Source: Zasmidium citrigriseum (lineage: Eukaryota > Ascomycota > Dothideomycetes > Mycosphaerellales > Mycosphaerellaceae). Taken from it: a stretch of 64,000 nt of DNA. Position 1 is the stretch's first letter, and each line of letters begins with the position of its first letter. A model generated the notes under the pieces. The model saw only the letters and a list, made by a program, of their open reading frames with translations, did not search any database and had not been told where the DNA came from. Shown here one piece after another: positions 2,994 to 33,161 of the stretch. The position numbers and the translations under genes are program-made. The DNA is taken from contig NHNW01000005.1 in NCBI GenBank assembly GCA_002786025.1, forward strand, positions 992,001-1,056,000, read 5' to 3'.

Positions 2994-3927
2994 TTGAACA
3001 AGTCGTTTTGGTGGCGTCTCTCCGAGTCCCTGTGCTACTGTGCTTTGTCGAGTACCCAGATTTACCGATGCCTTCGATCAAAGATGTCTTCGGGAAAGTG
3101 CCACTGGCTTGTAACAAAAGGCACAGAACTGCGAGTTGTCGAAGCTGACTGGGGGTTGAGTCGCAGAGGCAGCAGAGAGCACTGGGATCTGACCATCGGA
3201 AAACATAAAATGTGCGTGCGGTCCCAGATATTGTGTAGTAAGGCTCGCGACGTGAGGCGGCCTCCTGTGGCGGCGCATGTGTTGTCAAGCGCTGGGCAGA
3301 CATGCATGCACTGCCAAGCTCTGCAAGTACATGTAGGTACAAGCCACAGCCTCACTCACTGCGGCGAGCTCGACCAATCTGGGAGCGTGAATCGCATCGC
3401 AATCGGACTCGAAAGATTCAATCATGGCCAAGAATAGTCGTTTTTGGTTGCAGCCTCAAAAGCTGGCCACGGCACGCATGAATGGTATAGCACAGGTTGA
3501 ATCTGTCGTTTGACGGATATTTGATTGGTTGCCTTTAAGGCCAGTGTCGACATGACCAGAGAGCGAGACTGAAGTAAGTTTTGCGTGCAAGATGTAGCTC
3601 AGCCCCGCGGCGCAGTGCAGATATGTGGATGCTGCCTGACAGCAGATTGCTCGGGTCGAATGGAAAGCCACTCTTTCACCTTACAGCGCTGAGGTCCTCG
3701 AAGAAAGTAGATCGTCCAGAGGATTGCTTGCGACTCCAATTCGTGATCGAACAGGTGTTCAATGAACTCGAAGCCTGATATGATGAGATTCGATAATCCA
3801 TGAGGTCGGTGAGACGTACTACTCCTGCAATAGGCGGAATGGAGTAGATATTTGTGAGCATCGTTTCGTTTCGTTGCAAGTTCGACGACTGTCGCCCTGA
3901 AGGCACGTCATATCTTTCAGACCCTTT
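2994..3927. other. Intergenic region between NACHT gene and COG5, no gene seen
   Basis: About 930 bases. It contains the promoter of the NACHT gene and the 3' flank of COG5. The longest frame (plus strand, about 147 codons from 2994) has no recognisable motif and overlaps competing frames on the other strand. I call nothing here. Confidence 0.5.
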
Positions 3928-5196
3928 TCACCTGCCCAAAGGCCCAACAACACTCCCAACCATCACCGCCGCCTCCCTCTCCCAATTCCCCTGCTTCTTC
4001 GCCCCGCGATACCCGCGATCCACACACTCCCTCACCGCCTCTCTCACCCGATCGCGATTCGTTCTCAAAGTCCTCGCACTAACCCCTCCCTTCTGCAGAA
4101 TCTCCTGCACCCTGCTCGACATCTGGCCTGCCATGCTGCGCCAGAAGTACGAAGGCAGAGAGCCGGTATCCAGATGTCGGAGGAGCGGTTGGAGGAAGTT
4201 TTCGTCGGGTGGGGGTGTGGTGAGAAGGGGGTGCGGGGGTGGTTTTATCGATTCGAGAAGAGTTTCGAGCGCGGTGATGTTTTGGCAGCGGGCGGAGATT
4301 TCCATAAGCGTGCGTTCGAGCGTTGGGAGGGTAGCGAGGGCTCTGCTCAAAGCAGCGAGCGAGGATGTGAGAGCTGTTTGTAAGTAGTTCTGCAACGCCT
4401 GCACCAAAAGCGTCGGCTCAAACCCCCCATCTTTCTTGATCGGACTCAACAACCAAAGCGTCTGCATCGCACTCGTCGCCCTCGCTTTCATCTCCTCCGC
4501 CTGTGCAAAAGTCTTCTCCCCGGCCCCACCCGCTAGGCTAAACTCCCTCACAACGCCCTGCGCCCGACTAACAAGCCCCCTCTCGCTCGGACTGACCAAA
4601 TCCTGCCGCACCGTAACAGCAGCCTGAACACGACCCAACTCCGCCTCAGTCGCAAACAGTCCCCTCAACTCCAGCAAAGTCCTGCTTGCAGGAACCATGG
4701 CCCGAGCCCCACTCCCCTGCCGCGCACTCGGCGGCGAAGAAACCTCCTCCATCTGCCCCTCCAACTGCCGTCCCAGCTGCACAACCCTCTGCACCCCTCG
4801 CCCAAGTCTCAACGTCCTGACCATCCTCTCTGCCACCAAACGCACCTGTTCCGCAGCTTCATACCTCTCGCCCACTTCCCTCTCCAACCGTTTATAACTC
4901 TCATTCAGCGCCGCGACTTGCTCTTCTACAACCTCGAGCACCCTCTGTCCAGATTCATTCTTCTCTTTCGCGTGGCTGATGATTGGGAGGGCATTCTGGG
5001 TCGTGAGACTGTCGATGTTGGTGTCGACTTCTTGGACGTCGAAGAGGACGCGGGAGAGCGGCGTGGAGAGGTCAAGGGGTGTGTCGGAGGCGTTGTTGGT
5101 CTGGAGGACGAGGGTGTTGGCGTAGGCGGAGGGGGAGAAGGAGTCGGAGAGGAAGGTTCTGGTGTCGAGGTAGGATGACGAGGCAGGATCAGCCAT
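3928..5196 (-). CDS. COG5: Conserved oligomeric Golgi complex subunit 5 (Cog5)
   Basis: A single exon of 422 residues. The N-terminus (SSYLDTRTFLSDSFSPSAYANTLVL) matches the opening of fungal Cog5 proteins, which tether retrograde vesicles at the Golgi as part of the eight-subunit COG complex. Residues about 40-150 form the predicted coiled coil (VQEVDTNIDSLTTQ..., then EVVEEQVAALNESYKRLEREVGE). The rest is helical, with LSPIKKDGGFEPTLLVQALQ near the middle, typical of COG helical bundles. Fungal Cog5 is near this length and shorter than the animal protein. The start codon at 5194-5196 gives the conserved N-terminus. The assignment rests on remembered family similarity, not on a search. Confidence 0.82.
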   Translation of the reverse strand: MADPASSSYLDTRTFLSDSFSPSAYANTLVLQTNNASDTPLDLSTPLSRVLFDVQEVDTNIDSLTTQNALPIISHAKEKNESGQRVLEVVEEQVAALNESYKRLEREVGERYEAAEQVRLVAERMVRTLRLGRGVQRVVQLGRQLEGQMEEVSSPPSARQGSGARAMVPASRTLLELRGLFATEAELGRVQAAVTVRQDLVSPSERGLVSRAQGVVREFSLAGGAGEKTFAQAEEMKARATSAMQTLWLLSPIKKDGGFEPTLLVQALQNYLQTALTSSLAALSRALATLPTLERTLMEISARCQNITALETLLESIKPPPHPLLTTPPPDENFLQPLLRHLDTGSLPSYFWRSMAGQMSSRVQEILQKGGVSARTLRTNRDRVREAVRECVDRGYRGAKKQGNWEREAAVMVGSVVGPLGR

Positions 5197-5550
5197 GTTG
5201 TATGGTATGGCGAGGATTCGTTGTGGTTGTTGGAGGGTTCGGGGTGATGAGGTGACGTTGGAAGTTGGAAGTGGGGAGGATTTGATTAGGGAGCTTAGCT
5301 AAAACTTAGTGAGGTCGCACGTCAAATTTGTCTTCCGCAGATCGCGTGTAGAGAAAATTGACGCAATCGGATTGATTGCTCAAGACTGCATTGACATATA
5401 TTGACAGAGTCTATCGAATCTCCGTGCTTCAAGTGCAGGCCTGAGTGATGAGGTGAGGTCAAAATAGAGCGACATGCAGAGGACGCACGGACTGCAGGTT
5501 CACATGAAGGTCCATCATCATCGCCATCGAGTTTGCCGTCCAAGATATCG

Positions 5551-16549: not shown

Positions 16550-16601
16550 TGTGTCGATCGGCTTCGTTCAAGGCCTCGATTATGCCAGCTTAGTTCAGGG
16601 T

Positions 16602-16654
16602 CTTTATACTCGTTAGCAAGGTGTAGGAAACATGTGGAAGAAGTAGTAGCTTAC
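16602..16654 (-). mobile_element. Probable 5'-leader intron of the MFS gene, introner-like copy A
   Basis: Read on the minus strand this 53 nt segment starts GTAAGCTACT, has a TGCTAAC branch-like site and ends in AAAG, 53 nt before the MFS start codon. It therefore looks like a spliceosomal intron in the 5' untranslated region. Its first 32 nt are identical to the first 32 nt of the insertion in the tRNA-Ser gene at 17201-17254, in inverted orientation about 550 bp away. The last 20 or so nt are only loosely similar. Shared intron sequence of this kind is what introner-like elements of fungi show. Splicing here is inferred from signals only. Confidence 0.55.
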
Positions 16655-17128
16655 CCTGAAGACATCAAATGTCGACAGACCGTGATGAAGATCTCTTGAA
16701 AGAACAACGAACGAAGAAGATGTCCACAACACCTACTCTTCAATGATCTGACACACACCCAACAATGTGCTTCGCTTAACGAGATGATAGCGTTGATGCA
16801 GGCCAAGTGATAGGATATCGCAAAGATGGGGGTCGACTTTGATCAGCAGCGTGACGTTCGCCTAGAAAATTTGTGGCGGGAGGTTCGGTCAATTGACAGC
16901 ATTGATTACGAGAAGTCGCCGACCTTTTAGGTCTTTGAAAAAGAGTCTTGTCGTAGTAGTGCGTTGTTTGGAAGGTCGTCGTTGCCGTCATTCTGAAGGC
17001 CAAATCGATCCCTAGGAGCCTTTCACATGTCAGACCCATTCGACCCACCATCGTTGCTCCATGCCATCCCATGATTATTCGTGGTCTTATATGATTGTTT
17101 GCAGCCGTGATAAGAAATACACACCGTT

Positions 17129-17282
17129 GCTGAGGTGTCGGAGTGGTTAACGAGTCAGACTTGAACACCCCCGTGGTTCTAGATATCTGATGCCTTCGGG
17201 GTAAGCTACTACTTCTTCCACATGTTTCCTACGCCTTTCTAATGCATATCTCAGCGCGCAGGTTCGAATCCTGTCCTCAGCG
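17129..17282 (+). tRNA. tRNA-Ser (TGA) with two insertions
   Basis: The acceptor stem GCTGAGG (17129-17135) pairs fully with CCTCAGC (17275-17281), followed by discriminator G. The D stem is TCG/CGA. The anticodon stem TCAGA (17155-17159) pairs with TCTGA (17186-17190) around anticodon TGA (17162-17164). A 19 nt intron sits after the base 3' of the anticodon (17166-17184), the normal position for a nuclear tRNA intron. The variable-arm stem GCC-TTCG-GG(C) is then broken by a 54 nt GT...AG insertion (17201-17254). Removing it exactly restores the GCC/GGC arm of a class II tRNA. The T arm has B box GGTTCGAATCC at 17261-17271; an A box lies near 17136-17147. Whether the gene makes functional tRNA depends on removal of the second insertion. 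Confidence 0.88.
17201..17254 (+). mobile_element. Spliceosomal-type intron (introner-like copy B) inside the tRNA variable arm
   Basis: This 54 nt segment begins GTAAG, has TTCTAATG as a plausible branch site and ends TCTCAG, the full signal set of a short fungal spliceosomal intron, yet it lies in a Pol III gene. The first 32 nt are identical to copy A at 16602-16654, and the two bases before each donor are GG in both. The six bases preceding those also resemble each other (TTCGGG and TTCAGG), which may reflect insertion-site preference. The tRNA is restored precisely when the segment is removed, so it is an insertion and not part of the tRNA. Confidence 0.75.
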
Positions 17283-17287
17283 TTCCA

Positions 17288-17296
17288 TTTTCTTTT
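17288..17296 (+). terminator. Pol III terminator of tRNA-Ser
   Basis: Two TTTT runs (17288-17291 and 17293-17296) begin five bases after the discriminator base, followed by a third at 17298. This is the usual RNA polymerase III stop signal. Confidence 0.75.
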
Positions 17297-31461: not shown

Positions 31462-33161
31462 ATGCGCTACTCATACAGCTTGCTGGGCCTCAGCGCCCTG
31501 GCATTCGCTAGCGACGTCGTGGACCTGGGCAAGGACAGCTTCGACAACTTCATCAAGGGGCACGATCTCGTTCTGGCCGAGTGTAAGTCGCAGGATACTG
31601 TCAGCTGACCCATCAAACTCATGCTAATCACACAATCCTCCAGTCTTCGCGCCCTGGTGCGGACACTGCAAGGCCCTCGCCCCCGAGTACGAAGAAGCCG
31701 CCACAACACTCAAAGAGAAGGAGATCTCGCTCGTGAAGGTCGACTGCACAGCCGAGTCCGACCTCTGCCAAAGCTATGGCGTCGAGGGATACCCCACCCT
31801 CAAGGTCTTCCGCGGCACCGAGAACATCTCCCCCTACTCGGGCGCCCGGAAAGCAGACGCCATTGTCTCCTACATGACCAAGCAATCCATGCCCGCCGTC
31901 TCCCTCCTTACCTCCTCTTCCGCCCTCGACGAGTTCAAGACCGCCGACAAGGTTGTCTTGGTCGGCTTCTTCGCCGCCGATGACAAGACCTCCAACGCCA
32001 CATACCAAGAGATCGCCGATGAGCAGAGAGATACCTACCTCTTCGCTGCTACCAACGACGCAGACCTCGCCAAGGCTGAGGGCGTCAAGCAGCCGGCCAT
32101 TGTTCTGTACAAGTCTTTCGATGAGGGCAAGAATGAATTCACGGACAAGTTCACCAAGGAGGCTATTGTTGAATTCGCAAAGACCGCCGCTACTCCTCTG
32201 ATTGGCGAGGTCGGCCCAGAGACCTACGCTGGCTACATGGCTGTAAGTTGCTGAATTGTCGAGAATGTCTTGAAAATGGAGTGCTGACAAATTGACCCAG
32301 GCCGGTATCCCACTTGCCTACATCTTCTCCGAGTCCGCCGAGGAGCGTGAGCAGCTCAGCAAGGACCTCAAGCCACTCGCCGAGAAGTACAAGGGCAAGG
32401 TCAACTTCGCTACCATCGACGCCAGCGCCTTCGGCCAACACGCCGGTAACCTCAACCTCGAAGTCGGCAAGTGGCCGGCTTTCGCCATCCAGGACACCTC
32501 CAAGAACCAGAAGTTCCCCTTCGAGGCCGCCGGTGATGTCAAGGAGCTCAGCGAGAAGAAGATCGGCAAGTTCGTCAAGGAGTTCATCGAGGGCAAGGTC
32601 GAGCCAAGCATCAAGAGCGAGCCAATTCCAGAGAAGCAGGAGGGCCCAGTCACCGTCGTTGTGGCCAAGAACTACCAGGACCTCGTCATCGACAACGACA
32701 AGGACGTTCTCCTCGAGTTCTACGCTCCATGGTGCGGACACTGCAAGGCTCTCGCTCCCAAGTATGACGAGCTGGCCGGTCTCTACAAGGACTACGCCGA
32801 CAAGGTCATTGTTGCCAAGGTTGACGCTACTGCCAACGACGTCCCAGATGAGATTCAGGGCTTCCCTACTATCAAGCTCTTCAAGGCTGGCGAGAAGACC
32901 GAGCCAGTCGAGTACTCCGGTGGCCGTACTGTTGAGGACCTCGCCAACTTCATCCGTGACAACGGCTCCCACCACGTCGATGCTTACACCGAGGCTGCTG
33001 AGGGTACTGAGGGCGTCGACACCAGCGGCATGCCCGAGCAGGCTGCGGCGGCTACTGAGGGTGTCAAGGAGAAGGCTAAGAAGGCTGCCAAGGACGCCGC
33101 TGAGGCAGTAAAGGAGGCCGTCACTGAGGATGATGAGGCCGATGTCCATGATGAGCTTTAG
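31462..33161 (+). CDS. PDI1: Protein disulfide isomerase, ER-retained
   Basis: Three exons, 31462-31582, 31644-32242 and 32301-33161; 526 residues. A signal peptide (MRYSYSLLGLSALAFAS) precedes the first thioredoxin domain with active site APWCGHC at about 44-49, whose first exon junction lies just before it. Two inactive thioredoxin-like domains follow, then the second active domain with APWCGHC at about 383-388, an Ala/Glu/Lys-rich acidic tail and the ER retrieval signal HDEL. This is the a-b-b'-a'-c layout of classical PDI, which forms and reshuffles disulfides in secretory proteins. Codon use is strongly biased towards C-ending codons, in line with high expression. Confidence 0.97.

Follow-up and report, generated by a model that had tools for sequence, protein, structure and literature searches.

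We found that the window, i.e., the whole 64-kb stretch of DNA analysed here, very probably contains a working tRNA-Ser(UGA) gene of RNA polymerase III (Pol III) that carries both a 19-nt intron of the endonuclease type and a 54-nt U2-type spliceosomal intron. The 54-nt intron is one of at least 18 of its kind in 13 tRNA genes of the same genome, and the arrangement of these genes suggests that ordinary tRNAs can probably be made in this cell only with the help of the mRNA-splicing machinery. In the textbook division of labor the spliceosome serves Pol II transcripts and the tRNA endonuclease serves tRNAs, with U6 (and U3) as exceptions; we know of no textbook describing a need for the spliceosome in making ordinary tRNAs. 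One genome was examined throughout, a 44.4-Mb assembly in 148 contigs with the window located on contig 94. A D-serine-dehydratase-like protein encoded in the window shares 83% identity with Zasmidium cellare, 74% with Dothistroma septosporum and 65% with Zymoseptoria tritici, with one further sequence at 89%; by this one protein, the organism is probably a Dothideomycete close to Zasmidium.

Scanning of the window with cmscan (Rfam 15) returned a sole match at the gathering score, a full-length tRNA at 17129-17282 on the plus strand (model positions 1-71, 44.2 bits, E 3.9e-06). Relative to the model, the alignment has 19 extra nucleotides in the anticodon loop and a further 64 nt within the variable region, the latter corresponding to the variable arm plus the insert. 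ARAGORN with bacterial defaults found nothing; when introns were allowed, it reported a Ser(TGA) of distorted shape, score 100.7, whose intron would be 71 nt long. Removal of 17201-17254 led ARAGORN to a regular Ser(TGA) with a 19-nt intron at 17166-17184 (score 105.5), and removal of both segments yielded a complete tRNA-Ser(UGA) with a 13-nt variable arm. A preliminary description of this DNA had proposed that the gene folds as tRNA-Ser(TGA) with 19 nt and 54 nt removed, which both programs confirmed, and had suggested a covariance-model check, in which the Rfam model gave a full-length tRNA with both insertions. The features of the locus are as follows.

17129-17282, plus strand: tRNA-Ser(UGA) gene in three exons (17129-17165, 17185-17200 and 17255-17282), from cmscan and from our own scorer and ARAGORN on the spliced sequence.
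17129-17135 and 17275-17281, plus strand: acceptor strands GCTGAGG and CCTCAGC, read from the sequence.
17155-17159 and 17186-17190, plus strand: anticodon stem, with anticodon TGA, read from the sequence.
17166-17184, plus strand: canonical 19-nt tRNA intron at position 37/38, an expected substrate of the tRNA splicing endonuclease (cmscan, ARAGORN).
17201-17254, plus strand: 54-nt spliceosomal-type intron GTAAGC...CTAAT...CAG, in the 3' strand of the variable-arm stem between GG and C, placed by the variable arms of sister tRNA-Ser genes.
17239-17243, plus strand: CTAAT resembling a branch site, its A (17242) lying 12 nt before the end of the intron, read from the sequence.
17258-17274, plus strand: T arm with the B box GGTTCGAATCC at 17261-17271 (sequence and B-box pattern).
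17288-17296, plus strand: two T runs resembling a Pol III terminator (TTTT at 17288-17291 and again at 17293-17296), read from the sequence.
16606-16673, minus strand: inverted, diverged partial copy of 17182-17249 (tRNA exon 2 plus intron), 87% alike (DNA search).

The complete cloverleaf, U33, B box and terminator are those expected of a functional nuclear tRNA gene, and the promoter box and terminator that had been described as intact are indeed present. So are the GTAAG donor (here GTAAGC), the CTAAT and the CAG end. Once both introns are removed, the hairpin GCC-TTCG-GGC forms the variable arm, TGCCTTCGGGCGC, whose 13 nt equal the length of the arms of Ser-AGA (TCCCTTCGGGGGC) and Ser-GCT (TTCCTTCGGGAGC); the claim that exact removal restores the GCC/GGC stem was thereby borne out. 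Because the sister-gene arms match and the splice signals are in place, the junction of the 54-nt insert is fixed. The fold score alone does not single it out: among 3,775 distinct products of a blind deletion scan, the GT-AG removal scored 63.75 and two other nearby deletions 65.5, since the variable arm tolerates differences in length.

The genome-wide survey combined Rfam tRNA matches, for which 63 of 1,309 candidates were scored, with B-box patterns, where all but 20 of 133 places were covered. It identified 13 tRNA genes with 18 GT..AG insertions outside position 37/38 (17 firm and 1 tentative), up to three per gene and scattered over the cloverleaf. The 12 genes outside the window lie on ten other contigs, and many of the introns fall inside stems. 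The positions, in our own numbering, are listed below.

Ser-UGA: variable arm.
Ser-CGA: 64/65.
Leu-CAA: 63/64.
Leu-CAG: variable arm.
His: 52/53 and 63/64.
Gln-CUG, two genes: both 28/29.
Arg-UCU: 4/5 and 62/63.
Pro-CGG: D loop and variable loop.
Gly-CCC: 9/10.
Val-CAC: variable loop.
Glu-UUC: 69/70.
Arg-CCU: 4/5, 53/54 and, tentatively, 68/69.

The Ser-CGA gene on contig 1 illustrates the arrangement, with an insert GTATGT...CTACTAACGTTCTTCCAG that breaks the gene between the T stem and the acceptor and whose exact removal restores pair 49:65 and a 7-bp acceptor. A 37/38 intron of 12-45 nt, by our own scorer, is also present in 10 of the 13 genes, the exceptions being Val, Glu and Arg-CCU. 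The survey is blind to introns that interrupt the B box, so the 13 genes are a lower bound and an avoidance of the B box by introns cannot be claimed. By our own scorer, 14 nuclear tRNA genes of the surveyed set need no such removal to fold; for two further loci (L111 and L153) this holds by ARAGORN only. Contigs 41 and 51 were excluded, having been taken as mitochondrial from their tRNA clusters; contig 51 has its own tRNA-Ser(tga). Four loci (L045, L099, L109 and L139) and a tRNA-like family lacking U33 stand outside the gene counts. A further candidate, L103 (contig 72:126413, minus strand), was rejected and left out of all counts: removal of a 54-nt GT-AG insert at 4/5 makes an acceptor stem, but the T arm misfits. 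With a second GTGAGC..CTAAC..CAG stretch, it is possibly a decayed tRNA gene.

Several tests were applied to the intron removals. Once the introns were removed, ARAGORN gave a single call with the expected anticodon for every one of the 13 genes, reporting for the spliced His gene an odd 4-nt intron in the anticodon loop. Unspliced, seven of the 13 were not found on the gene strand, and four received a wrong anticodon, three of these also a wrong amino acid (Gln was named as Gly and as Leu, Pro as Leu, and Leu-CAG as Leu-TAA); only Ser-UGA and Val were given the right anticodon. The Rfam model alone gave partial matches for Glu (4-67), Arg-UCU (8-63) and Gly (9-63). In deletion scans blind to splice sites, for which the other intron of two-intron genes was removed beforehand, the exact GT-AG deletion was the unique best in 7 of 13 runs, each among 3,879-5,328 distinct products and with 1 to 4 slip-equivalent positions. 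These runs comprised Ser-CGA, His a and b, Gln 1, Leu-CAA, and Arg-UCU a and b, all with introns in stems. For each intron, GT..AG would fall at given ends with a chance of k/256, and the product over the seven, from which Glu is excluded, is ~2e-16.

Because the seven introns were not drawn at random, scans with decoy signals weigh more than this figure. Over 133 non-redundant loci including the window (295 kb, both strands, score of at least 52), the real splice signals retrieved 11 genes vs 1, 1, 0 and 0 with four decoy signal sets, and 0 genes were retrieved in all five Markov shuffles. With relaxed signals, the window being represented by L009, 12 genes were obtained vs 0, 0 and 1 for decoys. 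The decoy matches were Leu-CAG and Gly-CCC, both already among the 13 genes.

The exact ends are less constrained for other introns. Where the intron lies in a loop or a variable arm (Ser-UGA, Leu-CAG, Pro a and b, Val), fold score leaves them unfixed. Other deletions were equal or better in the blind runs of Ser-UGA, Gly, Gln 2, and Pro a and b; Glu had four tied products without GT-AG as the unique best, and L103 gave no product. The thirteenth gene, Arg-CCU, was pieced together and is in neither signal scan. Its upstream part was predicted beforehand to hold a GT donor 45-65 nt before CAG/GCT and a C before TAAC; the prediction came out in part, with GTAAGT, 52 nt and CTAAC present and with the exon ending in GGCT instead of GACC. 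This end pairs with GGTC only through two G-U pairs, and G-U pairs in the acceptor stem number four in all. At the third Arg-CCU intron, the GT-AG deletion scored 62.0, and a 60-nt deletion without GT-AG ends scored 63.5.

A blind scan of 114 B-box places, which cannot score multi-intron genes or introns over 80 nt, found 13 places intact without deletion, 74 that yielded no product scoring 50 or higher, and 23 that needed a single deletion to be restored, with GT-AG listed best in three of these. The other 20 restored places include four listed genes (Gly, Gln 2, Glu and Pro), in which competing deletions score equally or higher or removal of a second intron is required, and 16 places off the list. 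Several of these 16 are tentatively read as members of the U33-lacking tRNA-like family, where the deletion would merely supply the anticodon-loop U, and others as low-scoring chance.

The survey also brought up tRNA-like and repetitive sequences of other kinds. One tRNA-like family (GCTGATC...GGTCAGC or similar, with A and B boxes) occurs at L116 (contig 78:192000-199500), L015, L053, L100, L101, L114 and L131, with five members within 1.5 kb on contig 78; several lack U33 and have odd anticodon loops, and one U33-lacking member was called His(gtg) by ARAGORN. The family may represent repeats derived from tRNAs or a different Pol III RNA. L099 (contig 69:270091) and L139 (contig 101:211846), two tRNA-like genes of closely similar sequence, have the form GGGGAAG...CTTCTCC, and a 37/38 intron does not resolve their anticodon loop. 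Four loci (L107, L138, L143 and L144) are alike in having GGTRACTAT, a pyrimidine-rich run and GCGGCGGCG-like repeats followed by a B-box-like motif. AT-rich repeats with the B-box-like GGTTCGATTCC, several of them paired ~207 nt apart, were seen at L132, L137, L141, L047, L049, L064 and L083 and look like mutated repeats. The motif GGACTCGAG follows the terminators of several tRNA genes (3' flanks of L092, L118 and L125) and is also found inside the Glu intron (L098).

If the introns had inactivated their host genes, other intact genes would supply the tRNAs. Ordinary copies do exist for Gly-CCC and Glu-UUC (ARAGORN, L111 and L148), the survey was partial, and the uncounted L103 looks decayed; nevertheless, we consider it very unlikely that these are dead genes, given that their exon stems are nearly perfect and that splice signals are kept while introns diverge. 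The two Gln-CUG genes have a common intron position. Their 5' exons are identical at 27 of 28 positions and their 3' parts, 37/38 introns included, at 48 of 58, whereas the spliceosomal introns agree at 51 of 81 positions in a lenient alignment and the flanks at 34 of 68 and 39 of 68; donor, branch site and acceptor are kept nonetheless. The T stems, CCCGG/CCGGG vs CGCGG/CCGCG, differ by a compensatory change, as expected if both genes still make folded tRNAs. In addition, a whole-gene DNA search and the B-box pattern revealed no second nuclear Ser-UGA gene in the genome, which answers the earlier suggestion to count the other tRNA-Ser(TGA) genes, and a DNA search with the spliced tRNA-His, of which one candidate was scored, revealed no second His locus. 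UCA accounts for 36 of 2,278 codons in five window ORFs. The preliminary description had left a choice between an insertion that kills the gene and one that requires an unusual processing route; with stems intact and no other nuclear Ser-UGA gene, killing is disfavored and the processing route fits far better.

U6 is a Pol III gene, and one U6 gene of this genome has such an intron and served as a positive control. This U6 snRNA gene (contig 72:164780-165045) is split after GCATGGCC by a 56-nt intron GTAAGT...GCTAAC...TTAG with the branch A 12 nt from the end, followed downstream by CCTGCACTAAGGATGACAC and a T run. Further U6-like matches lie on contig 117 (full length, unsplit, 42.2 bits, below the cut-off of 44) and contig 59 (30.7 bits). 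Introns in fungal U6 are known (PMC5832005), and together with the U6 intron found here this indicates that at least one Pol III transcript of the organism is probably already a substrate of its spliceosome. The statement that spliceosomal introns are not expected in Pol III genes has accordingly lost some of its force, fungal U6, including the one here, being a place where they occur. The U6 case also argues against the possibility that the tRNAs are cut from longer Pol II transcripts whose introns are spliced as in mRNA or ncRNA. Such precursors would agree with the resemblance of the tRNA intron signals to those of mRNA introns read from window frames, e.g., the 58-nt GTAAGT..CTGAC..CAG at 32243-32300; these mRNA introns come from 11 clusters identified by reading frames without protein alignment and serve as an illustration, not a statistic. 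The B boxes and the T runs after many genes speak against Pol II precursors, weakly since the survey selected for B boxes, and this explanation has only a slim chance of being correct.

The anatomy of the introns points to the spliceosome. Sixteen of the 18 introns are 52-59 nt long, and those of the Gln pair are 71 and 78 nt. Donors are GTAAG in nine, GTATGT in three, GTGAGT in two, and GTAGGT, GTACGT, GTTAGT and GTCAGT in one each. The branch motif CTRAY occurs in 17, with TTAAC in Glu, so that all 18 have the YTRAY branch site of U2-type introns, 10-12 nt from branch A to the intron end. The presence of GT, AG and the branch motif is partly by construction, these having been search conditions, but the narrow ranges were not imposed, a branch spacing of 7-30 nt and a length of 45-95 nt having been allowed. 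All 18 have GT-AG ends, which were the unique best in 7 of the 13 blind runs, where ends were free. Removal restores a functional exon, with the exact ends of loop introns resting on signals or sister genes. Depletion of TTTT inside the 18 introns was not significant (1 vs 3.9 expected, 6.3% of shuffles), and selection against Pol III terminators inside introns was thus rejected.

This anatomy also bears on whether the tRNA splicing endonuclease removes the inserts, as for the ectopic tRNA introns of Cyanidioschyzon merolae, where multiple introns are cut through bulge-helix-bulge motifs (PMC3978253). Introns at 37/38 accompany the inserts in 10 of the 13 genes; however, the near-fixed branch-site distance and narrow length are foreign to endonuclease introns, and the chance that the endonuclease is responsible is slimmer still. 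A simple check for the bulge-helix-bulge motif (central helix of 4 bp, 3-nt bulges at both junctions) gave all four pairs at 1 of 18 junctions; it does not separate the two kinds of intron, since none of the ten 37/38 introns used as positive controls showed the helix either. The 54 nt could also be an assembly error, or could stay in mature tRNA-Ser and enlarge its variable arm, variable arms being the part of a tRNA that best tolerates changes in length. Both ideas are almost certainly wrong in view of the 12 other tRNA genes on ten other contigs, many with introns in stems, and of a 154-nt precursor that folds no better than shuffles (z -1.08). Each of these four alternatives explains less than a spliceosomal intron in a working Pol III tRNA gene, and the earlier suggestion of a spliceosomal intron has good support from the recurrence of such introns in a dozen further tRNA genes.

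The alternative suggestion of an introner was not borne out. The 54-nt insert has one other copy in the genome, partial and inverted, and a high-copy introner family was rejected on this ground. Beyond the splice signals, similarity among introns is weak, the interiors being slightly more alike on average than in shuffles (10.66 vs 9.96, sd 0.16), with no pair beyond shuffles (29 of 200 shuffles reach the maximum). The inverted copy at 16606-16673 starts within the 37/38 intron, near its end, spans tRNA exon 2 and takes in the greater part of the 54-nt intron; its 34-nt core is identical and its flanks are 71% and 76% alike. The presence of tRNA exon sequence makes descent from the tRNA gene most likely. 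GTAAGC and CTAAC are retained, as is an AG located 11 nt past the A, delimiting a possible 53-nt intron at 16602-16654 on the minus strand. A minus-strand ATG lies near 16550, downstream of this possible intron, in a frame taken for a transporter gene from reading frames alone; the copy may be a 5' leader intron of this putative transporter-like gene.

Spliceosomal introns in small structured RNA genes are known. U3 and U6 are the only such RNAs described as often interrupted in PMC5832005, which concludes that U3 introns are normal spliceosomal introns. Like those of fungal U6 snRNA and U3 snoRNA, the introns reported here are short, run from GT to AG, have RCTRAY branch sites and interrupt small structured RNA genes; unlike them, they are hosted by 13 tRNA genes, with up to three introns each and usually an extra endonuclease-type intron. 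Eukaryotic tRNA introns away from 37/38 have been described in C. merolae and in the Guillardia theta nucleomorph, and in C. merolae up to three tRNA introns per gene were missed by a standard tRNA finder (PMC3978253). The C. merolae introns have bulge-helix-bulge motifs, are cut by the tRNA endonuclease and measure 11-69 bp, whereas those described here have GT-AG ends, branch sites, and narrow length and spacing. They also differ from canonical nuclear 37/38 tRNA introns in position, length, GT-AG ends and branch site. Introner-like elements of Dothideomycetes represent spliceosomal intron gains in related fungi (PMC4457414). An introner-like element would be present in many near-identical copies, unlike the 54-nt insert with its one partial copy and the introns with their weak interior similarity; the terms tRNA, non-coding RNA and Pol III are absent from the main text of PMC4457414. 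In a 2026 review on non-canonical splicing, the splicing of tRNAs is presented as spliceosome-independent (PMC13149111). Among titles and abstract beginnings in the open-access literature no report of spliceosomal introns in tRNA genes was found, which is weak evidence of absence, and such introns in tRNA genes are on this basis apparently new.

Based on the sequence signals, we propose that Pol III transcribes the tRNA-Ser(UGA) precursor and that the spliceosome would remove the 54-nt U2-type intron as a lariat from this nuclear transcript. The variable arm, which is read by seryl-tRNA synthetase, could form once this intron is removed, and the tRNA endonuclease and ligase would remove the 19-nt intron at 37/38, in what we infer to be the order of the two reactions, leaving a presumably functional mature tRNA. 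It is likely that the spliceosome is an obligate tRNA-maturation machine in this organism and that a large share of its nuclear tRNAs, including those of what may be the sole His and Ser(UGA) genes, needs two splicing systems.

One transcript here apparently needs both splicing systems and, if this is true, spliceosome activity would directly limit the tRNA supply. Old questions can thereby be put to the test: are Pol III transcripts, which lack a cap and a poly(A) tail, freely accessible to spliceosomes, by what route do introns enter structured RNAs, and how does the surveillance of tRNAs separate intermediates from dead ends? Because the standard finder missed or misnamed 11 of the 13 unspliced genes, the tRNA sets of related fungi may be wrong. 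If the spliceosome matures tRNAs here, tRNA-borne introns may also seed introns elsewhere, for example in a gene leader, as with the inverted copy at 16606-16673.
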